A stretch of DNA of 64,000 nucleotides. Origin: Desulfurispirillum indicum S5. Lineage in GTDB: Bacteria > Chrysiogenota > Chrysiogenetes > Chrysiogenales > Chrysiogenaceae. Position 1 is the first letter of the stretch, and the number at the start of each line of letters is the position of its first letter. This document shows positions 3,430 through 16,664 of this stretch, one piece after another. The notes beneath the pieces were generated by a model that worked only from the letters and a program-made list of their open reading frames with translations, was not told the origin of the DNA and did not search any database. Both the position numbers and the translations under genes were made by a program. The stretch is taken from the NCBI RefSeq assembly GCF_000177635.2, contig NC_014836.1, positions 1,438,001 through 1,502,000 of the forward strand, in the 5' to 3' direction.

Positions 3430-4685
3430 AGAAGATACTTTTTGTTGTAGCCATATTTGCAACCATGGCAGCTACTGCTTTTGCCATAAACAACGACCTG
3501 CTTCGTCAGCAGCTCAAGCTTTTCAGCGAAACTCTGTCCTATATAAATGTCAACTATGTGGAAGTCCCTGACCAGAAAGAACTCATCTACGGTGCTATCC
3601 AGGGAATGCTCACCACTCTTGACCCCCATTCATCTTTTATGAAACCCGAGACCTATCAGGAGTTTAAAACTGATACGCGCGGGGAATTTGGTGGGCTTGG
3701 TATACAGATTGCCATTCGTGATCGGGTACTCACGGTCATTGCGCCCATTGAAGATACTCCGGCATGGAAGGCGGGCATTAAAAGCGGCGATCGTATCATC
3801 AGAATCGAAAACCAGGCCACCGAGGGCATGAGTGTGATGGACGCGGTGCGCATTCTGCGAGGTGAGCCCAACACGCCTGTCACCATTACCATCTGGCGTG
3901 AAGGCCAGAGCACGGGCAAGGATTTCACCATTGTCCGTGATATCATTAAAGTGAAAAGTGTGCGTCATGAGCGTTATGGAGATATTGGTTACGTACGCAT
4001 TACCAACTTCAACGAGAATACCTCAAGTGAGCTGCGCGACTCTCTGAAGGACCTTGAAAGCCAGCCTCTGAGTGGACTTGTTCTGGATATGCGCAACAAC
4101 CCGGGTGGATTATTGAATCAGGCAATTGATGTCACCAGTGCGTTCATCTCGCCGAACAAACTGGTCGTCTATACCGAAGGTCGTACCAGCAGTCGAACAG
4201 AGCTGCATTCCAAGGTTTTCGATAATAAACAACGTGAATATCCCATGGTGGTGCTCGTCAACGGTGGCAGTGCCTCCGCTTCGGAAATCGTCAGCGGTGC
4301 ACTGCAGGACTATAAACGCGCGATTATCATGGGCACGCAGACCTTCGGGAAAGCCTCGGTTCAGACGGTTATTCCCCTCTCAGATGGCAGTGGCATGCGA
4401 TTGACTACCGCGCGTTACTACACCCCTTTTGGCGGAGCCATACAGGGTGTCGGCATAACACCAGATGTTATCGTCGAGCAGGGGCGCATTGTGCGAGACG
4501 AAGGCACCGAGGGAATGCGTGAGGCAGATATTCCCGGCCATATTCGCGGCGAATTCGAAGGGATCCCTGCTGAGGACAACAGCACATCGGAAATGCCCTT
4601 GGATGACCTGCAGCTCCTCAGGGCCATTGATGTCCTCAGCGCCATTCACGTATTCGGTGGAAAACTGGATCTGAACAACAAGTAA
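3426..4685 (+). CDS. C-terminal processing peptidase (S41 family, PDZ domain)
   Basis: This is a periplasmic serine protease of the CtpA/Prc type. It has an N-terminal signal sequence or anchor (VKKILFVVAIFATMAATAFA), a short helical domain, a PDZ domain (about residues 75-165, with GGLGIQIAIRD) and the S41 catalytic core with the nucleophile in GGSASASEIVSGAL and the lysine in TFGKASVQTV. The GTG at 3426 is preferred because GGAGG lies just upstream and the signal peptide then begins at residue 1; an ATG at 3405 is the alternative. It overlaps the EnvC-like gene by 4 bp. Ctp proteases often sit in this FtsEX-EnvC cluster, where turnover of murein hydrolases or activators is a plausible job. 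Confidence 0.93.
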   Translation: MKKILFVVAIFATMAATAFAINNDLLRQQLKLFSETLSYINVNYVEVPDQKELIYGAIQGMLTTLDPHSSFMKPETYQEFKTDTRGEFGGLGIQIAIRDRVLTVIAPIEDTPAWKAGIKSGDRIIRIENQATEGMSVMDAVRILRGEPNTPVTITIWREGQSTGKDFTIVRDIIKVKSVRHERYGDIGYVRITNFNENTSSELRDSLKDLESQPLSGLVLDMRNNPGGLLNQAIDVTSAFISPNKLVVYTEGRTSSRTELHSKVFDNKQREYPMVVLVNGGSASASEIVSGALQDYKRAIIMGTQTFGKASVQTVIPLSDGSGMRLTTARYYTPFGGAIQGVGITPDVIVEQGRIVRDEGTEGMREADIPGHIRGEFEGIPAEDNSTSEMPLDDLQLLRAIDVLSAIHVFGGKLDLNNK

Positions 4686-4787
4686 TCCGCCAAAGAGTGC
4701 GCCAGCACGGCCTGGCATCTGATATTCGGATGTCTACGCAGCTGGCGTACCGCTACGCCTGAAGGGATGATAGACGGTTAATCACCT

Positions 4788-6068
4788 ATGCAGCGATACA
4801 CAACCTTTCTCTGGTCGATCTTGATTCTGGCTTCAATCCTGACGCTCGTTTTCGCCATTGGCGCTTACTCCCACGTAAACAGGGAGAAGCCGGTGCTGTT
4901 GGATTATACCCGCACCAGCACGGGCGTTGAAAACGCACTGCAGGCTGTTCTTCTCGAGCACGGCATCTCATCCGGTGATATCACCCATGAACAGATGCGA
5001 CTGGCCTCCCGCGATAATCAGCAGTGGAATTACTACTACCGCGAGATCAACGTCATGGGCGATGATGACCTCCTTGCCCTGGAACGTAAAATAATGAGAG
5101 CACTGGCCCCGTGGAAAGTGCGTCTTTCTTCTCGGGAAGCCGGTTCCCGGGACAACAAGGCGTACTACAAGATTCGGCTCTCTCTGCCCCAGGGGATCAC
5201 GACCCATTCGCTGCTCTTCTTCACACCGGAAATTGCCTATCATCCGGCAGAGCCTGAAGGGGTGCCCATGGATGAAATACCGGTTCCTCCTCGTCCAGGA
5301 ACACCTCTTGAACCCCTTCAGGTGGAAGAGCCGTGGGAGAAACCGGCGCGGATAGCCATTATCCTTGACGATGCCGGTGACAACTTTCAGCTGGCAAAAC
5401 AGGCGGTACAGATCCATCCGGCGGTTACCCTTTCCATACTTCCGAAACGTCCTTTCTCCCGCGAAATATCGCAGCTTCTTGACCGCATGGGACTGGAATA
5501 CATGCTTCATCAGCCCATGGAGGCGCAGAATCCCCTTATTAATCCCGGTTGGGCAGCGTTGCTGACTACCATGGACGAAGAAGAGATCCGCAGTACTTTC
5601 ACCGCTGCTTTGGAGTCACTTCCCGGAGTCGCAGGGATTAACAATCACATGGGCTCCAGGTTTACTCAGGACCCTGACCGGCTGCGCATTGTCATGGAGA
5701 TGATAGCGGAGCGGGACCTTTATTTTATCGACAGTTATACCACCAGCGACTCGCAAGCCTATGCCGTTGCCACAGAATTTCAGGTATCAAGCGGGTTCCG
5801 TGATGTGTTTATAGATAACGAAAGTGACGTGGAGGCCATCCTGCGACAGCTGGATATCCTGGTCCGTGATGCGCAGCGCTACGGTTCAGCCATCGGCATC
5901 GGTCATGTGCGCTCTCGCACCATTGAAGCACTGGAAGAATTTACTGGCCGGCTTGAAGAGATGAATGTTGAGCTGGTGACGCCTTCAGTCATTGTATCCC
6001 ACCGAAAACCTGCTCAGATCAGCGAGATCGTAAATGAAGACACACAATCAAGTCCTGATGAATTCTGA
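4788..6068 (+). CDS. Divergent polysaccharide deacetylase (YibQ family)
   Basis: The 426-aa protein has an N-terminal membrane helix (residues 5-25), a low-complexity middle region rich in Pro and Glu (about 155-185) and a C-terminal divergent polysaccharide-deacetylase domain with the family blocks IAIILDDAGDN, LHQPMEAQ and GINNHMGSRFTQD. Members are predicted periplasmic NodB-fold enzymes, but the substrate is unproven. The gene lies 102 bp after the protease and overlaps the following carboxypeptidase gene. The order EnvC, Ctp, YibQ-type is recurrent in proteobacteria, so an envelope-remodelling role is likely. Confidence 0.9.
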   Translation: MQRYTTFLWSILILASILTLVFAIGAYSHVNREKPVLLDYTRTSTGVENALQAVLLEHGISSGDITHEQMRLASRDNQQWNYYYREINVMGDDDLLALERKIMRALAPWKVRLSSREAGSRDNKAYYKIRLSLPQGITTHSLLFFTPEIAYHPAEPEGVPMDEIPVPPRPGTPLEPLQVEEPWEKPARIAIILDDAGDNFQLAKQAVQIHPAVTLSILPKRPFSREISQLLDRMGLEYMLHQPMEAQNPLINPGWAALLTTMDEEEIRSTFTAALESLPGVAGINNHMGSRFTQDPDRLRIVMEMIAERDLYFIDSYTTSDSQAYAVATEFQVSSGFRDVFIDNESDVEAILRQLDILVRDAQRYGSAIGIGHVRSRTIEALEEFTGRLEEMNVELVTPSVIVSHRKPAQISEIVNEDTQSSPDEF

Positions 6069-7059
6069 TCCTCTGGCCAGAAACGCCTTTATTCGAATTA
6101 TCACAGCGCCGAGACTGAACCAGGTTCTGCTCGGACTCTTCCCGTTTTTGTTCTTCTCCTATCTGCTGATCTCCTATTACAGTATGCGTCCGGAAGAACC
6201 GCGCGTGGGGCACCTGCAGATTCAGATGCGTGCAGCGACCCAGCAGATGCCCTTTGCGTTGCCGGAATTTCGTCTGAACCAACGTTCTTTTTTCTTTCCC
6301 GAGGCCTCGCAGCTTGGAGCCATAATAGTCGTTGACGCAAACCGGCAGGAGATCGTCTATGCCAAAAACCTGCACGAGGTTATGCCAATAGCTTCACTGA
6401 CAAAGGTGTTTCTGATGGAAGAGCTTCTTGACCGTATTCAGCAGGGGGCCCTCACTTTTGACAAAGAATTACGGGCCTCGACCAGGTCTTCGCTTATCGG
6501 GGGTTCGCGAGTGTATCTGCGCGAGCACGAAAATACCACCATAGAGCAACTTGCCAAGGCCACGATGATTCACTCCGCCAATGATGCTGCCTACCTGCTG
6601 GGAGAGGTCATTGGTGGAGGTGACGCGAACCATGCCGCCCAGCTACTGACGGCCAAGGCACAGACTCTGGGGCTGAAAAACACCAGGCTCTATAACGTCA
6701 ATGGTCTGCCGAACCGTGGAGGACCTGATAATATATCTACTCCCTATGAACTGGCACAGTTTACCTTTAAACTGATGGCGAGAAACCCGGAAATCTTTGA
6801 AATCGCCAGCACCGAAGTGGATTATTTCCGCCGTCCCGGAGGACAGGATTTTCTGCTGGTGAACCGCAATCGTCCTCTTGTGCGACTGGACTATGTCACT
6901 GGCCTGAAAACCGGTTATACCAACAGTGCAGGTTTCTGCGTGATCACCACATCGAACAAGAATAACCGTAATCTCATCACGGTGATTCTCAATGCGCCCA
7001 GCTCGCAGATCCGAGATCGCGCTGCCAAACGCCTCATTGATCACTTTTCAACGATCTGA
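6034..7059 (+). CDS. D-alanyl-D-alanine carboxypeptidase (S11, PBP5-like)
   Basis: This enzyme trims the terminal D-Ala from murein stem peptides. The 341-aa protein has a membrane-spanning segment at about residues 30-50 and the three S11 motifs in order: SLTK (in IASLTKVFLME), SAN (in IHSANDAAYL) and KTG (in TGLKTGYTNSAG). It lacks the extra C-terminal beta domain and amphipathic anchor of E. coli PBP5, so the N-terminal helix probably tethers it. The ORF overlaps the deacetylase gene by 35 bp; if the ATG at 6058 is used the overlap is 11 bp. Its 3' end overlaps the convergent dehydrogenase gene by 12 bp. Confidence 0.92.
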   Translation: MKTHNQVLMNSDPLARNAFIRIITAPRLNQVLLGLFPFLFFSYLLISYYSMRPEEPRVGHLQIQMRAATQQMPFALPEFRLNQRSFFFPEASQLGAIIVVDANRQEIVYAKNLHEVMPIASLTKVFLMEELLDRIQQGALTFDKELRASTRSSLIGGSRVYLREHENTTIEQLAKATMIHSANDAAYLLGEVIGGGDANHAAQLLTAKAQTLGLKNTRLYNVNGLPNRGGPDNISTPYELAQFTFKLMARNPEIFEIASTEVDYFRRPGGQDFLLVNRNRPLVRLDYVTGLKTGYTNSAGFCVITTSNKNNRNLITVILNAPSSQIRDRAAKRLIDHFSTI

Positions 7060-8016
7060 CGACCGCATCTCCGGATACCAGCTGATCAGAGCCGCGCGTT
7101 CGTGTTCCACGAGCTGCTCCAGCATTTCAAAAGTGTAACCGGCGATATGGGGAGTGCACAGCACCTGTGGATGTGAACGCATCCAGTGGTTCGCACCCAG
7201 AGGTTCATCCTGGAAGACATCCGCAGCATAACCCGCAAGGATCCCCCCATTCAGAGCCCTTTGCACCGCAGATTCATCGACCACTTTTCCCCGCGCAGTA
7301 TTGAGAAGGTATGATCCTGGTTGAAGGTGTGACAGTGCCTCGTCGTCGATCATATTCTGTGAAGATGTTGTCAGTGAACAGTGAAGACTGACCACTGAGC
7401 ATGAAGAGAGCAGGGTTTTCAGATCGCTATAGCGCTGCACAGCATGGTCATATACCTCATCTGCTGCGACAAAAGGATCATAGTATCCCAGGCTGCGCGG
7501 CTCGAAAGATTTCAGCATGCCACTGACCCTGCGGCCGATAACGCCGTAACCGATAATGCCGATATCCTTGCCATGGAGACGTCCCGTACCTCTGATCTGG
7601 TTGCGTACCCAGTGCCCTTGTTGCATGGATTGATAGATGGAGCTGGACTTCCTCAGAAGATCCAGCATCATCATGATCGTCGACTCGCTGACGTCAATAC
7701 TGCGTGGCACTGGAAGATGCTGCCAGCGAATTCTACGGTCTGCCACAGCCGCCATATCCACATGGTCATACCCGGAATTCGGTATCAGAATCCCCTCAAG
7801 GTTGGGGAAGTATGCCAGGACCTCGGCACTTATTGCATAGGAGGTATTGGGTATGATGACATGGGCGTCGCGTACCGCAGGGTGAGGTATTTCTCCCTTT
7901 TCATGATGCACGCATGTATAAGCAAATCCGGCACTTTCCAGGGTTTTCTGCTCAAATGGCACCAGCTGCTGGAACTGCCGGGGTGAGATGGTCAGACGGG
8001 CAACGCGCTTTCGCAT
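7048..8016 (-). CDS. D-isomer-specific 2-hydroxyacid dehydrogenase
   Basis: This is an NAD(P)-dependent oxidoreductase of the D-lactate/glycerate/phosphoglycerate dehydrogenase superfamily. The 322-aa protein has the Rossmann nucleotide loop GYGVIGRRV, the substrate arginine in LLNTARGKVVDES, the acid in AADVFQDEPLG and the catalytic histidine in CTPHIAGYT. It has no ACT or regulatory domain, so it is not a full-length PGDH. It stands alone between two plus-strand genes, giving no clue to substrate. The family call is firm and the substrate unknown. Confidence 0.92.
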   Translation of the reverse strand: MRKRVARLTISPRQFQQLVPFEQKTLESAGFAYTCVHHEKGEIPHPAVRDAHVIIPNTSYAISAEVLAYFPNLEGILIPNSGYDHVDMAAVADRRIRWQHLPVPRSIDVSESTIMMMLDLLRKSSSIYQSMQQGHWVRNQIRGTGRLHGKDIGIIGYGVIGRRVSGMLKSFEPRSLGYYDPFVAADEVYDHAVQRYSDLKTLLSSCSVVSLHCSLTTSSQNMIDDEALSHLQPGSYLLNTARGKVVDESAVQRALNGGILAGYAADVFQDEPLGANHWMRSHPQVLCTPHIAGYTFEMLEQLVEHERAALISWYPEMRSSDR

Positions 8017-8098
8017 ATACGAATCCTTTGCGGGAATTTTACTTGTCTTTTGTCGAGATCATGGCGATATTCTAACATACTAAAAAAGGGGGGCTGTA

Positions 8099-9427
8099 AT
8101 GATTACCATCGATTATACGCTGACCATGAAAGAGAACGTTGCTACCGGTCTGAACTCTGAAGTGCTTGAAGCCATTGACCTGCGTTTTCGCACGCAACTC
8201 CATCGGCAGCTTGAAGCCAGACTTGCCGACAGCACCTATGCCTTTCGTGCAGGCCTTTCCATAGCGCACGATGAGCTCCCTTCAATAAAACGATTTCTGC
8301 AGGAAAACCTTGGCGGGATGAGAAATTTCGTGGTTGTGGGCATCGGCGGTTCAAACCTCGGAAACCTCGTCCTCGACAGGGCATTTCGCGGAAATGGCAA
8401 GAGTATCTATTATCTTGACAATGTCGAGCCCGATAAGATTCACCGTCTTTTCCAGGAGATAAACCTGCAGGAGACAGTTTTTAACATTATCACCAAATCA
8501 GGGTCCACCTCTGAGACCCTTGCCAACTATATTGCCGTTCGCAATGTGCTGGAGCGCAAACGACTCCCCCTGCAAAAACATCTTATATTCACCACGGATC
8601 CGCAAAAAGGCTACCTGCAGGAAATACGGCAGCGCGATGGCATCCCTACTTTTCACATCCCCTCGCCACTGGGTGGACGATTCTCAGTTCTTTCAACCGT
8701 TGGACTTCTGAGCTCAGGATTCAAGGGTATAGACCTTGAGAGTCTGTTGCAGGGTGCCCATGCTGCTGCAAACGACTGTCTCTCTGATTCCCTGCGCACC
8801 AACAAAGGTCTGCTGCTGGCGGCACTTTATATCGCAAACTATCAGAAGGGACGCACCATCAATGTGCTCATGCCCTATTCCGACCGTTTGCACCCCTTTG
8901 GGCAGTGGTTCCGACAGCTCTGGGCCGAAAGTCTCGGGAAAATTAACCGCGATGGAAAGCCTGTTGGCCAGACTCCTGTGGATGCGCTTGGCACTGTTGA
9001 CCAGCATTCCCAAGTGCAACTCTACATGGAAGGCCCCGACGACAAGATTATCACTTTTATCGAAATTCTTCGCCACCAGAATGATATTTCACTGGATGGT
9101 GAAATCGACTACTTTAATGGACAGACCATGGCAAAACTCCTGCGTGCACAGCTGCACGCAACCCAGATTGCCCTGCTGCAGAAACAGCGCTGCAGCCTGC
9201 GAATTGAGATGGATGAACTCAACGAGTGGAACATGGGTTATCTTATGTATTTATATATGTATGCGACCGTTGCCGCAGGTGAGCTGCTCGGGGTGAACCC
9301 TATAGATCAGCCTGGCGTAGAGCAAGGAAAGGAATATACTTACGCACTGCTTGACCGCCCGGAGTACCATGAACAAAGAATCCAATACGAAAAATTATGC
9401 GCATCTTTGCGCAAATATTGCGTATAA
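8099..9427 (+). CDS. pgi: Glucose-6-phosphate isomerase
   Basis: This enzyme interconverts glucose-6-phosphate and fructose-6-phosphate in glycolysis and gluconeogenesis. The 442-aa product is the short bacterial form. Visible signatures are VVGIGGSNLGNL, the phosphate-binding KSGSTSET, the catalytic Glu in WAESLGK, and QPGVEQGKEY with the conserved lysine near the C-terminus. A GGGGGG-rich ribosome site lies upstream of the ATG. It is followed closely by the HU promoter, which lies just beyond its stop codon. Confidence 0.96.
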   Translation: MITIDYTLTMKENVATGLNSEVLEAIDLRFRTQLHRQLEARLADSTYAFRAGLSIAHDELPSIKRFLQENLGGMRNFVVVGIGGSNLGNLVLDRAFRGNGKSIYYLDNVEPDKIHRLFQEINLQETVFNIITKSGSTSETLANYIAVRNVLERKRLPLQKHLIFTTDPQKGYLQEIRQRDGIPTFHIPSPLGGRFSVLSTVGLLSSGFKGIDLESLLQGAHAAANDCLSDSLRTNKGLLLAALYIANYQKGRTINVLMPYSDRLHPFGQWFRQLWAESLGKINRDGKPVGQTPVDALGTVDQHSQVQLYMEGPDDKIITFIEILRHQNDISLDGEIDYFNGQTMAKLLRAQLHATQIALLQKQRCSLRIEMDELNEWNMGYLMYLYMYATVAAGELLGVNPIDQPGVEQGKEYTYALLDRPEYHEQRIQYEKLCASLRKYCV

Positions 9428-9431
9428 TTCG

Positions 9432-9460
9432 TTGACAAAGGGTTTTGCGATAAGTAATAT
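9432..9460 (+). promoter_or_regulatory. Sigma-70-type promoter of the HU gene
   Basis: TTGACA (9432-9437) and TAATAT (9455-9460) are separated by exactly 17 bp, about 50 bp upstream of the HU ATG. This is one of the best housekeeping promoters in the window. Confidence 0.85.
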
Positions 9461-9507
9461 TTTTTCAGAACATCCTAACGTACCAATGACCCATATAAGG
9501 AGGGGGC

Positions 9508-9783
9508 ATGACGAAGAAAGAATTGATCGGTAAGATGGCTGAGGCTTCTGGTATTACGAAGGTTCAGGCGGAGAAGGCTCTGAATGCATTTATCGATTCA
9601 GTGAGCTCTACACTCAAGTCCGGAGAGAAAGTAACGCTTGTTGGTTTTGGTACTTTCCAGGTTTCTGAGCGTGCAAAGCGCCAGGGCATCAATCCCCGCA
9701 CAAAAACACCCATCACCATCCCTGCTCGCAAGTCGCCCAAGTTTGTTCCCGGCAAGGCTCTGAAAGAGCTGGTGGACAAGTAA
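9508..9783 (+). CDS. hup: HU-family DNA-binding protein
   Basis: This is a small nucleoid protein that bends and compacts DNA. At 91 aa it has the normal HU length, begins [15 protein letters not shown], and carries the beta-arm region with the DNA-intercalating proline in [17 protein letters not shown] strong Shine-Dalgarno (AAGGAGGGGG) lies before the ATG. With its own promoter and terminator it is a monocistronic, probably highly expressed gene. IHF subunits are similar, but the sequence looks more like a homodimeric HU. Confidence 0.95.
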
Positions 9784-9802
9784 GTCTCATTTCCTTTATT
9801 TT

Positions 9803-9837
9803 AAAAGGCAGGCATGTTACGTGTCTGCCTTTTTTTA
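9803..9837 (+). terminator. Rho-independent terminator of HU
   Basis: AAAAGGCAGGCA pairs with TGTCTGCCTTTT (one G-U pair) across a 7-nt loop and runs straight into a T-tract. It begins 20 bp after the HU stop codon. Confidence 0.9.
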
Positions 9838-9863
9838 TTTCGCTCAAAAAGGATCGTTGCCCT

Positions 9864-11168
9864 ATGTTATGGAATGAGGAATTTGAAACCCTTCCCCGGG
9901 AAGCCCTTGAGGCCCTTCAACTGAAACGACTGCAAAATACATGCGCCCGTGTCTACGCCAACGTACCCTATTACCGCGCTGCATTCGACCAGGCAGGGAT
10001 AACGCCCGCTGATATCAAAAGCCTCAATGACCTGCACCGGTTGCCCTTCACGGGCAAGCAGGATCTGCGTGACAATTATCCCTATGGTATGTTCTGCACC
10101 CCCATGGAGCATGTGGTTCGCATACACGCTTCCAGCGGCACCACAGGCAAGCCTACAGTTGTAGGTTACACCAGACGTGATATTGACACCTGGTCGGAGC
10201 TCATGGCCCGTTGCTTTGCCGCCGCAGGTGTCACGCGGGGCGATATTGTCCACAACGCCTATGGATACGGCCTTTTTACCGGAGGACTTGGCGCTCATTA
10301 TGGCGCCGAGAAAGTTGGGGCATCCGTTATCCCCATGTCTGGTGGCAACAGCAAAAAACAGATTATGATCATGCAGGATTTCGGCTCAACGGTGCTGACG
10401 GCTACGCCATCCTACGCTCTGCATCTGGCAGAGGTTGCTCAGGAGGAAGGAATTCCCATGGAATCTCTCAAACTCAAAGTGGGTATTTTTGGCGCGGAGC
10501 CCTGGAGCGATGCCATGCGTCATGAGCTGGAGAGTAAACTGCATCTTGATGCCATCGACATCTATGGCCTGAGTGAAATCATGGGGCCAGGCGTCTCCAT
10601 TGAGTGCCGTGAGGCCAAGCATGGTATGCATATTATGGAAGATCACTTCATTCCGGAAATCATAGATCCGGACACCGGCGAGTCCCTTCCCCTTGGTGAA
10701 AAGGGCGAGCTGGTATTCACCACCATCACCAAGGAGGCCTTTCCCCTCATTCGCTATCGAACACGCGACATTACACGTCTCATCAGCGAACCCTGCCGCT
10801 GTGGGCGCACCTTCTATCGCATGGAAAAAGTATCCGGGCGCAGTGATGATATGCTGATTATCCGTGGCGTCAATGTCTTCCCTTCCCAGATTGAAGCTCT
10901 GCTCATCAATGTCAAGGGCATTGAGCCTCACTATCAGCTGATTGTCGACACACATGACCATATGGATACCCTGGAGGTTCAGGTTGAAGTCAACCAGCAG
11001 CTCTTCAGCGATGAGATCCGCCATTTACAGAACCTCAGCAAAAGTATCCAGAAGGATATCAAGGATCTGTACGGCATCTCCAGTAAAGTGTCCCTGGTTG
11101 AACCCAAAACCATTACCCGCTCCCAGGGCAAAGCAGTACGGGTAATCGATCGCAGAAAGGATAAATGA
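9864..11168 (+). CDS. paaK: Phenylacetate-CoA ligase
   Basis: This ANL-superfamily adenylate-forming enzyme activates phenylacetate (or a related aryl acid) to its CoA thioester with ATP. The 434-aa protein shows the phosphate-binding loop [16 protein letters not shown], the [12 protein letters not shown] motif and the C-terminal [20 protein letters not shown] hinge, all typical of PaaK. It is directly followed (1-bp gap) by an ACT-domain gene. In anaerobes this pair often accompanies aromatic amino acid fermentation through indolepyruvate:ferredoxin oxidoreductase, but those genes are not in this window, so the physiological substrate is open. Confidence 0.95.
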
Positions 11169-11169
11169 C

Positions 11170-11604
11170 ATGAAAGTGCAACAGATATCGATATTTATCG
11201 AGAATCAGGCTGGCAGGCTGGCCGAAGTAACACGCTGTCTGGCTGAAGGCAATATCAATATCAGAGCCTTGAGCCTGGCTGATACCCAGGACTTTGGCAT
11301 ACTCCGGCTGATTGTCAACGACGTGCAGGCCGCACGTAAACTCCTTGAAGAGAAGAGCTTCACCGTTGGCATCACGGATGTCGTTGCCATTAAGGTTCCC
11401 GATAAACCAGGGGGTATGGCGGCAATTCTGGCCATTCTCGATAACTGCAATATCAATGTGGAATACATGTATGCCTATGTGGACAGGGACTTTCAGGATA
11501 ATGCCGTGATTATCTTCCGCTTCGAAAATCTGGATGACGCCATCGCGTGTCTGACAGCCCAAGGAGTGGATATTGTCAAGGGAAGCGAGCTGTACGGCAT
11601 GTAA
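11170..11604 (+). CDS. ACT-domain protein (tandem ACT) paired with PaaK
   Basis: The 144-aa protein consists of two ACT-like modules, one starting QQISIFIENQAGRLAEVTRC and a second starting IKVPDKPGGMAAILAILDNC. ACT modules bind amino acids and usually regulate enzymes. A free-standing tandem-ACT gene immediately downstream of paaK is a common pairing, so amino-acid-dependent control of the ligase or its pathway is the natural guess. No catalytic domain is present. Confidence 0.9.
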   Translation: MKVQQISIFIENQAGRLAEVTRCLAEGNINIRALSLADTQDFGILRLIVNDVQAARKLLEEKSFTVGITDVVAIKVPDKPGGMAAILAILDNCNINVEYMYAYVDRDFQDNAVIIFRFENLDDAIACLTAQGVDIVKGSELYGM

Positions 11605-11738
11605 CTCAGGCTTCGCGCTGTTTTCCTTGCCGCTTTGGACCTGCCAAAGTGGCTGGGAGGCGGCACAGTGCTGATTTTTCAGCTCTCAGCGTACCTGGAA
11701 CTCCTGTTGGCTTTTCATTGCCTGCACGTTGCCGGTAC

Positions 11739-11763
11739 AATCAAATGAAAGAATTCAGCGAAG
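11739..11763. repeat. Direct repeat, left copy (possible integration site)
   Basis: AATCAAATGAAA is repeated exactly at 12960, and the next 13 positions agree at 9 places (21 of 25 overall). The two copies flank the tRNA-Leu and the Xer-type integrase gene. A TTTTCATTG half-motif lies 19 bp to the left of this copy. Confidence 0.6.
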
Positions 11764-11770
11764 AGTGTAC

Positions 11771-11801
11771 AAAAAAAAGCCCGCAGCAAAAGCTGTGGGC
11801 T
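11771..11801 (-). terminator. Rho-independent terminator downstream of tRNA-Leu
   Basis: On the minus strand AGCCCACAGC-TTTT-GCTGCGGGCT (one mismatch) is followed by eight T residues, 13 bp past the tRNA 3' end. Confidence 0.88.
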
Positions 11802-11813
11802 GATTCTGTAAGA

Positions 11814-11900
11814 TGGTGCAGAAGGGGGGACTTGAACCCCCACGGCCTTACGACCACTACCCCCTCAAGATAGCGCGTCTACCAGTTCCGCCACTCCTGC
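11814..11900 (-). tRNA. tRNA-Leu (anticodon GAG)
   Basis: Reading the minus strand, the acceptor stem GCAGGAG/CTTCTGC (one G-U), the D-arm GCGGAACTGGTAGACGC, the anticodon stem CTATC/GGTAG with loop TTGAGGG (anticodon GAG), a long class II variable arm and the T-arm GGGGGTTCAAGTCCCCC are all present. The CCA end is encoded. It lies 54 bp downstream of the integrase gene, with its own promoter in between. Confidence 0.95.
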
Positions 11901-11912
11901 AAACAAGCCGGC

Positions 11913-11941
11913 AAATTACAGAAATAATGGTTCGGCGTCAA
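11913..11941 (-). promoter_or_regulatory. Promoter of tRNA-Leu
   Basis: On the minus strand TTGACG (11936-11941) and TAATTT (11913-11918) are 17 bp apart, and the tRNA begins 12 bp after the -10 element. Confidence 0.7.
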
Positions 11942-11954
11942 GTCTTTTTTCTCC

Positions 11955-12839
11955 TCAATCGAGAACACTGACGGCGCTGCGCAGGCCTTCCGGCGACGTA
12001 TGGGTATAAATTTCTGTCACCGCCACGTGGGAGTGCCCAAGCAGACGCTGTATTTCAATGAGGTTTACACCCTTGCGCACCAGATTCGTGGCAAAGGTGT
12101 GACGCAACAGGTGTGCCCCGCGCTTGCGAGGAAGGTCAATGCCCGCCGCTTTGATATGCAGGCTGGTACGCTGCCAGATAATGTAGGGTGTCAGTGGTTT
12201 GCCGTTGGTGCGGCAGAAAAAAAAGTCAGAGTCAATGGAGTCCATGTGCTCGTACCAGTAAAACTGCAGGATTTCCATTAAAGCGTCCGCAATGGGCAGA
12301 ATTTGCTCCTTCTGGCCCTTTCGGGTTATCTGGAAGGCCTTGCCCTGGCGATGGAAGTTTCTGCGGGTTAACTGGCAGATTTCGGAGGCCCGCATGCCGG
12401 TGTACAGAACACACAGCATGACCGCTGTGTCGCGGTCATTGTGAAAGTTGCGCTCCAGCCCGTTCAGATAGGCCCGCAGGCGCTTCTGTTCATCGTCTTT
12501 GAGGAAAACCGGCATCTCATTTTTATAGGCTCCTTTGGGGCTCTTGAGATCCCTGGCGGGATTCTCTTCGAGAAACCCTTCATATTGCAGCCAGTTAAAG
12601 ATCGCCCGCACATAACACAAGACGTTGGCATAGGTTGACTTGCTCTTCCCCATGGCCTTGTGGGTCAGGTACATGCGCAATTCTCGCGGCCCTGCGGTTT
12701 CCACAGTGAGTTCTTCCTGTTGAAGGAATTCAAGAAACCTGCGCATTTCAAAGAGATAGCGGTCTATTGTCTGTTGTGACAGACCACACTCGTATTTCAG
12801 ATACCGCTGATAGTGTTTTTCCATATCCCTGGTGTTCAT
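11955..12839 (-). CDS. Xer-type tyrosine recombinase/integrase
   Basis: The 294-aa protein cuts and rejoins DNA through a tyrosine nucleophile. The N-terminal core-binding domain (residues 1-85) is followed by a catalytic domain with the pentad: Arg in TGMRASEICQL, Lys in the beta hairpin ITRKGQKEQILP, HLLRHTFAT, the GHSHVAVTEIY stretch and Tyr in IYTHTS. The ATG at 12839 is chosen because upstream in-frame sequence (to 12965) runs through the palindrome and repeats and is unlike the family. Size and motifs match XerC/XerD, but its place beside a tRNA gene and between direct repeats is more like an element integrase. No other mobile gene accompanies it. Confidence 0.9.
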   Translation of the reverse strand: MNTRDMEKHYQRYLKYECGLSQQTIDRYLFEMRRFLEFLQQEELTVETAGPRELRMYLTHKAMGKSKSTYANVLCYVRAIFNWLQYEGFLEENPARDLKSPKGAYKNEMPVFLKDDEQKRLRAYLNGLERNFHNDRDTAVMLCVLYTGMRASEICQLTRRNFHRQGKAFQITRKGQKEQILPIADALMEILQFYWYEHMDSIDSDFFFCRTNGKPLTPYIIWQRTSLHIKAAGIDLPRKRGAHLLRHTFATNLVRKGVNLIEIQRLLGHSHVAVTEIYTHTSPEGLRSAVSVLD

Positions 12840-12867
12840 GGAGGCAGGATACCACACCCGACGGGCA

Positions 12868-12898
12868 TATCCAATGAAATTATTTATTTCATTGGATA
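12868..12898. repeat. Palindrome upstream of integrase, 13-bp arms, 5-bp centre
   Basis: TATCCAATGAAAT-TATTT-ATTTCATTGGATA is a perfect inverted repeat 28 bp upstream of the integrase start. Its core AATGAAAT-N5-ATTTCATT equals that of the palindrome at 500-538. Further TTTCATT/AATGAAAT half-motifs follow at 12914, 12955 and 12965, making a cluster between integrase and ubiB. It is either an operator or a crossover site. Confidence 0.8.
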
Positions 12899-12959
12899 AG
12901 AACGGGTGAATTGTTTCATTATGGTTATTTTTCGTGAAATGGTGCATTTTCCGCAATGA

Positions 12960-12984
12960 AATCAAATGAAATATCTCAGCGCAG
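12960..12984. repeat. Direct repeat, right copy, overlapping the end of ubiB
   Basis: This is the partner of the repeat at 11739-11763 (21 of 25 positions identical, 12 consecutive). It covers the ubiB stop codon at 12976-12978 and its last two codons, the geometry expected when an element integrates at the 3' end of a gene and rebuilds it. Confidence 0.6.
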
Positions 12985-14619
12985 GCGCAGCGCCTTCAAA
13001 ATGCCCGCAAGCATGAGGAGTACACCTGCCGGGAGGGCGTGGCGCAGAGATGAGTCCAGCACGAAAAGGCCACTGACAATAAGGATCACCGAAATAAGCA
13101 TCTGCCGAAGGTAGGATTTCACCGCATCCAGCAGTTGAAGTTTATCCTCTCTGTTAAGGCGCACGGTGAATTCGTCATCGTACATCTGATCGACGATCTT
13201 CTGCACTTTCAGAAGGGTCATGGGAAACTGCCGACCCTCTTTCAGCAGCTTTCCCACAACGTTTTCCTTCTCCAGGGCACGGGAAAGATTCTGCTTCAGA
13301 ATGGGCAGGATATCCTTAATGCCATTGAAATTTTCAATATAGGTTGTTCCCAGCCCTTCGACGATGGCGCTGGCGCGCATGATGTAAATGGTTTCCTGGG
13401 GGAGTTTAAAGGGCATCTGCTTCATGGAGCCAAGCAGGTCAGTGGCCAGTTGCTGCATACTGCTGGCATTCAGGGAGTTATCATCGAAGATATCGAAAAT
13501 CTGCTCTGCCAGATCCTGCAGTTCGTCGGCCGGGGCGTCTTCCGTGATAATACCCAGCTTGCGGGCCGCTGAAACGAGGTTTTCGTAATTGCGCTCGTAC
13601 GCTGATTTCACCAGTTGAATGGTTGCTATTCGTATGCGTCGTGGTATGCGCGTCACCATGCCGAAATCCAGCAGTATCAGTTCACCTTGACGGTTGACGA
13701 GGAGATTTCCCGGATGAGGGTCGGCGTGAAAGTAGCCTTTGACGAGCATCTGCTCTGTATAGAACATCACCAGTTTCTCCATGAGGTCATGAAAAGAGAT
13801 GTCAAGCTTCTGCAGGTGCGCGCGATCATCAAAACGATACCCCTCCTCAAAGCTCATAACCAGAGCGTCTGCACATGAGTACTCCGGGTAGGGTACGGGG
13901 AAACGCACCTGAGTCGTGGCATAGACTCCACGGAAGTGTTCAAGATTCTCCAGTTCCCGTGCCATATCGACTTCCTGCAGGATCATGGTGGCGAAGGCCT
14001 CAAGCACGGATTCCACGGAATTGCGGGTGTAGTCGGAAAACAGCGGGCGGAAGAGGTGGTGGAAAAAGCTGAGAATGCGAATATCCTGCGTTACCATAAA
14101 GGCTATGGCATTGCGGCGAAGCTTCACCGCCACCTGCTGGTTATCGACCGCCAGGGTGGCCCGGTGCACCTGCCCGATGGAGGCGCTGGCCATGGCCTCG
14201 TGCTCAAACTCAACAAAGATGGCGCCATTGCCAAAAGCCCTCTTGAAGACCGTCTGAAAGTCTTTGGGGCTCATTTGGGGTATCTGGTCGTGTAACTTTC
14301 GTAATTCATGGATATACGCAGCATCAAAGAAATCCGTACGGGTGGCAAGCACCTGGGAGAGTTTTATAAAACTGGTTCCAAGCTGCTGGATGATACCCAG
14401 GAGCATTGGTGGTGACAGCGGACGTACGCCGAGAAAATGCTCTTTGCGCTTGATAAGCAGGAAAATAGTCAGGAGAAAACGAAAGACGCCGTAAATCCTC
14501 AGCGGATTATACAGCCGGAAAAAAAGGGCTATGTGGGTCGACAAAGGTAATCCTTCAGCTGGCTGCCGAGAAAACGCCTTCTGCAGTGTTGCCCGCTGTC
14601 GCAGATCGGTGCAGCGCAC
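12976..14619 (-). CDS. ubiB: ABC1/UbiB (AarF) family atypical kinase
   Basis: UbiB proteins are membrane-associated, protein-kinase-like ATPases required for ubiquinone (or related quinone) synthesis. The 547-aa product shows the KxGQ-type segment LGTSFIKLSQVLATRTD, the Ala-rich loop ASASIGQVHRA that replaces the Gly-rich loop, VAVKLRR, the HADPHPGNLL catalytic block and LLDFGMV. Two hydrophobic segments form the C-terminus (residues 500-545), as expected. The first ATG (14619) is used and may be slightly early. A phasin-like gene lies upstream on the same strand, separated by a terminator. Confidence 0.92.
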   Translation of the reverse strand: MRCTDLRQRATLQKAFSRQPAEGLPLSTHIALFFRLYNPLRIYGVFRFLLTIFLLIKRKEHFLGVRPLSPPMLLGIIQQLGTSFIKLSQVLATRTDFFDAAYIHELRKLHDQIPQMSPKDFQTVFKRAFGNGAIFVEFEHEAMASASIGQVHRATLAVDNQQVAVKLRRNAIAFMVTQDIRILSFFHHLFRPLFSDYTRNSVESVLEAFATMILQEVDMARELENLEHFRGVYATTQVRFPVPYPEYSCADALVMSFEEGYRFDDRAHLQKLDISFHDLMEKLVMFYTEQMLVKGYFHADPHPGNLLVNRQGELILLDFGMVTRIPRRIRIATIQLVKSAYERNYENLVSAARKLGIITEDAPADELQDLAEQIFDIFDDNSLNASSMQQLATDLLGSMKQMPFKLPQETIYIMRASAIVEGLGTTYIENFNGIKDILPILKQNLSRALEKENVVGKLLKEGRQFPMTLLKVQKIVDQMYDDEFTVRLNREDKLQLLDAVKSYLRQMLISVILIVSGLFVLDSSLRHALPAGVLLMLAGILKALRLR

Positions 14620-14712
14620 TGTATGTCCACGTCACTCCTCGATCTGCAAGCTTCTGGCGCCTGGCGTTCTTCATTTGCCTGCCTGATTTCTGGTATTTCA
14701 GCAAACCGTTAC

Positions 14713-14741
14713 AAAAAAAGCGTATCCACACATGGATACGC
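14713..14741 (-). terminator. Rho-independent terminator after the phasin-like gene
   Basis: On the minus strand GCGTATCCA-TGTG-TGGATACGC is a perfect 9-bp stem followed by seven T residues. It ends transcription 9 bp after the phasin-like stop and before ubiB. Confidence 0.92.
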
Positions 14742-14749
14742 CTGGGAGT

Positions 14750-15031
14750 TTACTCTTTCCGGGTGAGTTCATCGCGGAGCTTTTCCAGATCCTCCCTGGT
14801 AACCAGGTCCAGTTCGTGCACCACATCCTTGATGATCTGCCGAAGTCTGGTTTCCAGTTGCTCGCCTTCGGATTTTCCCTTGGCGATGGTCTCATCAACA
14901 AAACTCCTGGCTTCTTCACGACTCATCTTCCCGTGCCGCGCGAATTCGTCAACCAGGGATTCAATTTTCTCCCTGGTCATCAGGGCGCTTCCGAGACCAA
15001 AGAGGATCAGATCTTTTATCCTGTTCTCCAT
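14750..15031 (-). CDS. Phasin-like small helical protein
   Basis: The 93-aa acidic/basic helical protein has a short hydrophobic start (ILFGLGSALMTREKIES) and then an amphipathic helix with repeated E-E-A-R and K-S-E-G-E patterns. It resembles the PHA-synthesis-regulator/phasin-type small proteins that frequently neighbour ubiB-like kinases. A GGAGG site sits 8 bp before the ATG. No polyhydroxyalkanoate genes are in the window, so a granule role is not supported here; an alternative is a general membrane- or protein-binding helix. Confidence 0.75.
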   Translation of the reverse strand: MENRIKDLILFGLGSALMTREKIESLVDEFARHGKMSREEARSFVDETIAKGKSEGEQLETRLRQIIKDVVHELDLVTREDLEKLRDELTRKE

Positions 15032-15060
15032 GACAAACCTCCATACGTGTTGTCACGTTT

Positions 15061-15089
15061 AAGGTAAGCAAAAGATATCGCGGTTTCAA
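15061..15089 (-). promoter_or_regulatory. Candidate promoter of the phasin-like gene
   Basis: On the minus strand TTGAAA (15084-15089) and TACCTT (15061-15066) are 17 bp apart, about 30 bp upstream of the ATG. The -10 match is weak. Confidence 0.35.
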
Positions 15090-15122
15090 GGGAATTCGTG
15101 CATGGGGTCTCTGCCTGCGCTC

Positions 15123-16664
15123 TCAGTTCCAGCGGCGCAGGATTGCCAGGGCCGTGTTGACCCCATCGACGGCGGCGCTGACGATGCCACCAGCATAGCC
15201 GGCACCTTCGCCACAGGGGTATACCTGAGGCCAGACACTGCTGGACAGGGTTTCACGTTCACGGGGGATGCGCACTGGGCTGGACGTTCTGGTTTCCGGA
15301 GCAATCAGCAGCCCGTGTTCAATAAAACCGGGCATCTTGCGCTCAAATTCCCGCAAGCCGTGTCCCAGTGCCATGGTCACTGGTTGTGGCAGCAGGTGGT
15401 GGAGATTCGCCTCAACGGGTGCAGGTGAGCTGCTTGAGCCAGGCAATTGCCCCTGTGGCGTACCCCACAGGAAGTCGGTCGCGGTCATGGCTGGCGGGCG
15501 GTAGCTCTGGCTGTAACGGTAACAGGCGGATTCGATGGAGCGTTGATAGGCCAGGCCTGCCAGGGGATCAGTGCTGCCGAAATCACGCTGATCGACGGTG
15601 ACCACCAGGGCGCTGTTGGAGTATTTCGCGTTGCGACTCTGGTAACTCATGCCGTTGACAGCGATATGATCCACCTCAGAGCTGGCATTCACCACCAGCC
15701 CCCCTGGACACATGCAGAAGGTGTAGACTCCGCGTTCCGCACACTGTGCGCTGAAATGGTACTCTGCCGCCGGCATGTTCAGGTGCCAGTGGCCATACTG
15801 ACTGCGATCCACCAGGTCACGGGGATGCTCTATGCGTACTCCCACCGCCAGGGGTTTTGATTGCAGCTGCAGTTTGCGGCTGAGACGCTCGAAGGTATCG
15901 CGGGCGCTGTTGCCCACAGCCAGTACCAGCGCGTCACCATAATAACTTTGCCCAGTGGTCAGCGCGTCAACCCCGGAACCATGGGGACGAAGGTCAACCA
16001 CTTTCTCGCCGAAATGCAGTGAGACGCTGTGCATTTCAAGTTGCTCACGGAAGCGACGCAGCACCTGCTGCAACTGATCGGTACCCACATGGGGTTTCGC
16101 GTCCCAGAGTATGGCTCGACTGGCTCCCAGACTCACCAGCAGGTGCAGCACAAAATCACGATGGGGACTTTTTATGCGCGTGGTGAGTTTCCCGTCGCTG
16201 AAGGTGCCAGCTCCACCCTCCCCAAACTGTACATTGGACATGGGATCCAGGTTTGCGTTTCTCCAGAACTCATAGACGTCGCGTTTGCGTTCGTCTACCT
16301 GGCGGCCCTGCTCAATCAGCCGAACGCGCACCCCGGCAACCGCCAATGCGTAGGCACAGAACAACCCCGCAGGACCACTGCCTACGACGGTGACCTGTCG
16401 GTTTTGCACCTTTGGGAAGCGGCGCAGGGTGCCCATGGTGGATGTATTCTCCAGGGAGTATTCCGGCAGTTTCTCCCCGGTGAGCGCATACTCGACCTGC
16501 AGGAGTTCATAGATAACCTGTCGCTTCTGCCGGGCATCTATACTGCGTCTGATGATGCGTATATCGCTGATCTCCTCGTGACTTGAGAGTCCAAGATGCC
16601 GCTGAAGGTGGATTTGCAGATTCTCACCATAGGGAAGGCGCAGCTGGGCCTGACGGGAACTCAT
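15123..16664 (-). CDS. FAD-dependent dehydrogenase, COG2509 type
   Basis: The 513-aa flavoprotein has an N-terminal non-flavin domain (residues 1-90), then the dinucleotide-binding motif VVGSGPAGLFCAYALAVAG and the family hallmark QFGEGGAGTFSDGKLTTR. Near the C-terminus PCGEGAGYAGGIVSAAVDG completes the FAD site. Members are soluble oxidoreductases of unknown substrate, widespread in bacteria. The ATG overlaps the stop codon of the upstream gene by one base (TGATG), so the two are translationally coupled. Confidence 0.9.
   Translation of the reverse strand: MSSRQAQLRLPYGENLQIHLQRHLGLSSHEEISDIRIIRRSIDARQKRQVIYELLQVEYALTGEKLPEYSLENTSTMGTLRRFPKVQNRQVTVVGSGPAGLFCAYALAVAGVRVRLIEQGRQVDERKRDVYEFWRNANLDPMSNVQFGEGGAGTFSDGKLTTRIKSPHRDFVLHLLVSLGASRAILWDAKPHVGTDQLQQVLRRFREQLEMHSVSLHFGEKVVDLRPHGSGVDALTTGQSYYGDALVLAVGNSARDTFERLSRKLQLQSKPLAVGVRIEHPRDLVDRSQYGHWHLNMPAAEYHFSAQCAERGVYTFCMCPGGLVVNASSEVDHIAVNGMSYQSRNAKYSNSALVVTVDQRDFGSTDPLAGLAYQRSIESACYRYSQSYRPPAMTATDFLWGTPQGQLPGSSSSPAPVEANLHHLLPQPVTMALGHGLREFERKMPGFIEHGLLIAPETRTSSPVRIPRERETLSSSVWPQVYPCGEGAGYAGGIVSAAVDGVNTALAILRRWN

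Follow-up and report, generated by a model that had tools for sequence, protein, structure and literature searches.

We identified what is probably the chromosomal dif site of Desulfurispirillum indicum S5, a perfect palindrome denoted P1, together with Xer1, the tyrosine recombinase that most likely acts on it. A second palindrome, P2, and the paralogous recombinase Xer2 probably represent a duplicated module with a changed flank. This assignment comes from computed features, namely the anatomy of the sites, their exclusivity, their conservation and terminus location, the catalytic residues of the recombinases, and the missing FtsK motor and canonical dif. More tentatively, the Xer system of the Chrysiogenaceae might work free of any FtsK translocase and comprise two Xer/palindrome modules, insulated from each other, at one terminus, with a single one in the third genus. 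Unless stated otherwise, positions refer to the window, i.e. the whole stretch of 64,000 nucleotides that was analysed.

P1 (500-538) is a 39-bp palindrome with perfect arms of 18 bp and a 3-bp centre, and P2 (12868-12898) is a 31-bp palindrome with perfect arms of 13 bp and a 5-bp spacer. An initial annotation of this DNA had proposed that both Xer-type genes are preceded by a common 8+8-bp core around a 5-bp centre. This core, AATGAAAT-N5-ATTTCATT, indeed has exact matches at 509-529 in P1, with the spacer AATAT, and at 12873-12893 in P2, with the spacer TATTT; none of these features is assigned a strand. Beyond the core, the outer flanks are TTTGT at P1 versus ATCC at P2. The arms of P1 contain only 4 G or C in 32 bases, and the site is non-coding, palindromic, low in G+C and variable at its centre, like dif sites. 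With up to three mismatches, the window holds three core matches, a number reached in none of 100 shuffles, for 0.26 expected.

The core could have turned out to be a dispersed motif, with many copies unlinked to recombinases. In the whole D. indicum chromosome (2,928,377 bases, one contig), however, the only two copies with zero or one mismatch are P1 and P2, and one additional, unrelated copy appears at two mismatches. Similarly, among the AT-rich palindromes in the 400 kb around the terminus, no more than three have perfect arms of at least 13 bp, and P1 and P2 are two of them. The cluster of half-motifs described next to P2 (12914-12972, no strand) was also recovered, with TTTCATT at 12914 and AATGAAAT at 12955 and 12965. 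It is dense relative to the genome average of the AATGAAAT 8-mer (0.038 per kb over 761 kb of the D. indicum genome), and its position is not kept in the relative. The two AATGAAAT copies form a tandem pair 10 bp apart (12955-12972) upstream of P2 and might be extra half-sites.

P1 and P2 each lie directly upstream of one of the only two Xer-type genes of D. indicum, both on the minus strand. The gene xer1 runs past the edge of the window and was taken whole from the chromosome (1437464-1438375, its 5' part being 1-375 of the window). It codes for a protein of 303 residues, and its start codon is 125 bp from P1. The gene xer2 (11955-12839) codes for 294 residues from the ATG at 12839, with P2 sitting 28 bp upstream of that codon. 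The two proteins are paralogues with 41% identity. Both belong to the tyrosine recombinases (PF00589) and have the complete R-K-H-R-H-Y set, as all six catalytic residues of Escherichia coli XerD (R148, K172, H244, R247, H270 and Y279) are identical in the two. Of the other four recombinase matches of D. indicum, one is an IntI1-like integrase, one has an IS91-like neighbour, one is an integrase of the P4 type and the last is degenerate or mobile. Judging from their sequences and neighbours, these appear to be of integron, transposon or phage type.

Xer1 and Xer2 score well short of the curated cut-offs for XerC, XerD, XerS and archaeal XerA, and no protein of the three Chrysiogenaceae genomes compared below passes those for XerC or XerD. 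On the XerC and XerD models they score 153-204 bits, with best scores of 204 against a cut-off of 335 for XerC and of 190 against 330 for XerD. They reach 82-97 on the XerS model (cut-off 267) and 142-166 bits on the archaeal XerA model (cut-off 220). Their closest solved structure is that of XerD. A phylogenetic tree groups Xer1 and Xer2 in a single supported clade (98/98), separate from the XerC and XerD proteins of the phylum, and places their duplication before the genera of the Chrysiogenaceae; XerH sits on a very long, separate branch whose position is uncertain. A profile of Xer1 and Xer2 gave at least 500 bits in the Chrysiogenaceae, on which it had been trained, and never more than 166 bits in the 48 genomes from the rest of the phylum; no scores fell in between. 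A wider search of genome contigs for relatives of these proteins yielded only segments of 21-54% identity from unrelated taxa. The residues of XerD that contact FtsK-gamma are uninformative here, as even the XerC/XerD-type proteins from other families of the phylum do not conserve them.

The association between site and recombinase was compared in three Chrysiogenaceae genomes, a small sample, each from a different genus. In D. indicum and the other two (G001 and G002), xer1 is preceded by TATTTGTAATGAAATA-NNN-TATTTCATTACAAATA, with 32 of 32 arm bases identical and three different centres (ATA, GAT and CAC). Between genera the Xer1 proteins share only 55-67% identity, despite the invariant P1 arms. 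In D. indicum and G001, xer2 is preceded by P2 in the form ATC(C)AATGAAAT-N5-ATTTCATTGGAT. G002 has no xer2, with xer1 and P1 as its sole Xer-type gene and site, and no palindrome remains in the 20 kb around its ubiB gene. The outer flanks track the paralogue, xer1 or xer2, across genera, and the spacers of P1 and P2 match neither in D. indicum (AATAT and TATTT) nor in G001 (AGATT and GTTAT). In other families, the 3-kb loci that were checked around core matches with one mismatch contain no Xer gene.

The cumulative GC-skew maximum of D. indicum, taken as the estimate of the replication terminus, is at position 1266 of the window (1439266 of the chromosome), 0.75 kb from P1. The sampled skew is mostly positive ahead of this maximum and mostly negative past it. 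A gene that we named dnaA by eye is at base 86 of the chromosome, so that P1, 49.1% of the way round, is nearly diametrically opposite. The distances between the skew maximum and P1 are 2.9 and 5.5 kb in G001 and G002, which are draft genomes, so that these maxima are single-contig values. P1 is thus close to the skew extremum in all three genomes, as a dif site would be. The polarity of the KOPS-like motif GGGNAGGG is weak and uninformative. In G001 the xer1 and xer2 modules are both near the skew maximum, with 9.8 kb between them, although the genes that neighbour xer2 in D. indicum map approximately 270 kb away. This suggests that it is the position at the terminus, and not passive linkage, that holds the modules there. 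Taken together, exclusive linkage, conservation in three genera and terminus location lend good support to the initial proposal of a possible undescribed family of Xer proteins and sites. Nevertheless, two points count against the dif assignment: the distance from P2 to the skew maximum is 11.6 kb, and it is unusual for one chromosome to carry two dif-like sites.

The location of the sites just 5' of a gene also resembles that of an autoregulatory operator, a further point against dif. The palindromes might accordingly be operators of xer1 and xer2 rather than crossover sites, bound by a regulator or by the recombinase as a self-repressor. In every genome they precede the start codon of the recombinase, and conserved arms around a free centre would also suit a dimeric repressor. 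However, they lie anywhere between 10 and 125 bp from the start codon, the genome offers a regulator no other copy of the site, and 16-bp arms around an odd, asymmetric centre suit the core site of a tyrosine recombinase. A terminus location in three genomes would also be unexpected for operators. We therefore regard this explanation as improbable; autoregulation by bound Xer could nevertheless coexist with recombination.

Still less probably, Xer1 and Xer2 could be mobile-element integrases, with the palindromes as their attachment sites. Both proteins fall in the tyrosine recombinase superfamily, and a tRNA-Leu gene (11814-11900), a common integration target, adjoins xer2. Nevertheless, the surrounding genes have housekeeping functions (ftsE, ftsX, ctp and ubiB, for example), and neither palindrome has a second flanking copy. 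Xer1 was inherited vertically in all three genera, its gene neighbourhood being syntenic in G002, and the extended P1 site occurs in none of the viral contigs searched. Lastly, the palindromes fold at -16 to -25 kcal/mol, but it is hardly credible that they act as RNA hairpins, i.e. terminators or attenuators, as they are AU-rich, P1 has no T-run behind it, and its arms show no compensatory changes and are the same in all genera, indicating that the sequence and not only the pairing has been kept.

The three Chrysiogenaceae genomes lack the motor domain (PF01580) and the gamma domain (PF09397) of FtsK, both of which are present in three outgroup genomes from the phylum. In the former, a full-length FtsK query finds only a protein of 248-270 residues that matches FtsK_4TM alone and is encoded near an RNase-J-like gene (named by eye), whereas the outgroups have full-length FtsK. 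In D. indicum this FtsK reduced to its 4TM membrane domain is at 1051671-1052138 of the chromosome (locus L188), and its counterparts are in loci L187 and L189. The sampled relatives in the other families of the phylum retain full FtsK as well as XerC/XerD-type recombinases. E. coli FtsK acts in division through its N-terminal membrane domain and in Xer recombination through its C-terminal motor (PMC3870252). As FtsK_4TM alone remains, the Chrysiogenaceae appear to have retained the division half of FtsK and lost the Xer half. Loss of the motor could alternatively mean that dimer resolution has been given up.

Searches with the E. coli, B. subtilis, consensus and archaeal dif sequences returned nothing above the shuffled level in the 400-kb terminus region, and no canonical dif was found in the three Chrysiogenaceae genomes with up to two mismatches. 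Within the same limits, none of them has a 28-bp dif with the conserved XerD arm TTATGTTAAAT. In other families of the phylum (genomes G004, G006, G008, G011, G013, G014 and G020), we noted a recurrent sequence, (G/T)ATAAGATATATTATGTTAAAT, which is likely to be their canonical dif; with up to two mismatches allowed, it has no match in the three Chrysiogenaceae genomes. Each of the genomes G000 (D. indicum), G001, G002, G006, G014 and G022 encodes a single PF00521 (GyrA/ParC) protein. Topoisomerase IV thus seems to be missing from them, a trait that is not specific to the Chrysiogenaceae, as outgroups are among them.

The Xer1/P1 module can be compared with several known systems. XerS/difSL of streptococci and lactococci and XerH/difH of Helicobacter and Campylobacter similarly consist of one recombinase and an AT-rich palindromic site at the terminus, linked to the recombinase gene as a module (PMC2731167, PMC5357621). 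P1 and xer1 share this linkage near the terminus. However, XerS and XerH proteins have 354-362 residues and those of the Chrysiogenaceae 294-306 residues, with scores far below the XerS cut-off, which places the latter outside that lineage. Moreover, the XerS and XerH sites are imperfect repeats and their systems use FtsK, whereas P1 and P2 are perfect, the motor is missing and there are two modules per chromosome. XerL/dif of Legionellales is also a single-recombinase system, with uninterrupted inverted-repeat arms of 10 and 12 bp, but the xerL gene of L. pneumophila lies >400 kb away from dif, and that species has an FtsK homologue (PMC9765430). Archaeal XerA/dif likewise provides Xer recombination at the terminus with no FtsK (PMC2958812), but its site is dif-like, 28 bp long and unique in the chromosome, and Xer1 and Xer2 fall below the XerA cut-off. 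XerCD/dif/FtsK, the system of most bacteria including the other families of the phylum, also comprises two paralogous recombinases with an identical catalytic set. Unlike it, the Chrysiogenaceae lack the asymmetric 28-bp dif and the motor and gamma domains of FtsK, and each of their symmetric sites is paired with one recombinase gene.

On the simplest reading, Xer1/P1 would function as a single-recombinase module analogous to XerS/difSL and XerH/difH. Two Xer1 subunits would bind the symmetric arms of each P1. After an odd number of crossovers has joined the sister chromosomes into a dimer, four Xer1 subunits would pair the two P1 copies, cut beside the short asymmetric centre and exchange strands, thereby restoring monomers. 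The odd, non-palindromic centre of P1 would set the direction of the site. With only the 4TM membrane domain left, FtsK could neither pump DNA nor activate Xer, and synapsis would thus have to be independent of the FtsK motor, as proposed for archaeal XerA.

Xer2/P2 would be an old duplicate of Xer1/P1 with an altered outer flank, which stayed near the terminus but disappeared from one genus. A common inner core of 8 bp with differing outer flanks is what one would expect of two recombinases that arose from one ancestor and then diverged in specificity, and between which the labour might be split. The initial annotation had invoked a common crossover site or a common regulator. The core is shared, but as the flanks differ and follow the paralogue, and the spacers also differ, each palindrome probably has its own recombinase, and the two are unlikely to be a single crossover site used in common; a transcription regulator common to both is also less likely. 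The spacer mismatch should prevent recombination between P1 and P2 and spare the 12 kb between them from deletion.

In the literature searched, no paper joins Chrysiogenetes with 'dif site', and Chrysiogenetes and FtsK occur together only in a paper on type IV filaments. A natural bacterial Xer system free of the FtsK motor, with two palindromic modules linked to the terminus, appears to be undescribed in this literature. According to standard teaching, FtsK controls Xer recombination in bacteria. The Chrysiogenaceae, which apparently kept the FtsK membrane domain and lost the motor, and have a divergent Xer and a perfect palindrome at the terminus, allow a direct test of whether bacterial dimers can be resolved without a septal DNA pump, and of what then orders and times the process. 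Their two paralogous modules, with a common core and different flanks, represent a natural experiment on how recombinase specificity diverges.

Elsewhere in the D. indicum chromosome, within 15 kb of oriC, we noticed by eye a class-1-integron-like block (positions 4000-16300, locus L052). It contains an IntI1-like integrase, genes resembling aadA and sul1, transposases of the IS6-like and ISL3-like types, and a pair of almost identical cation-efflux genes.
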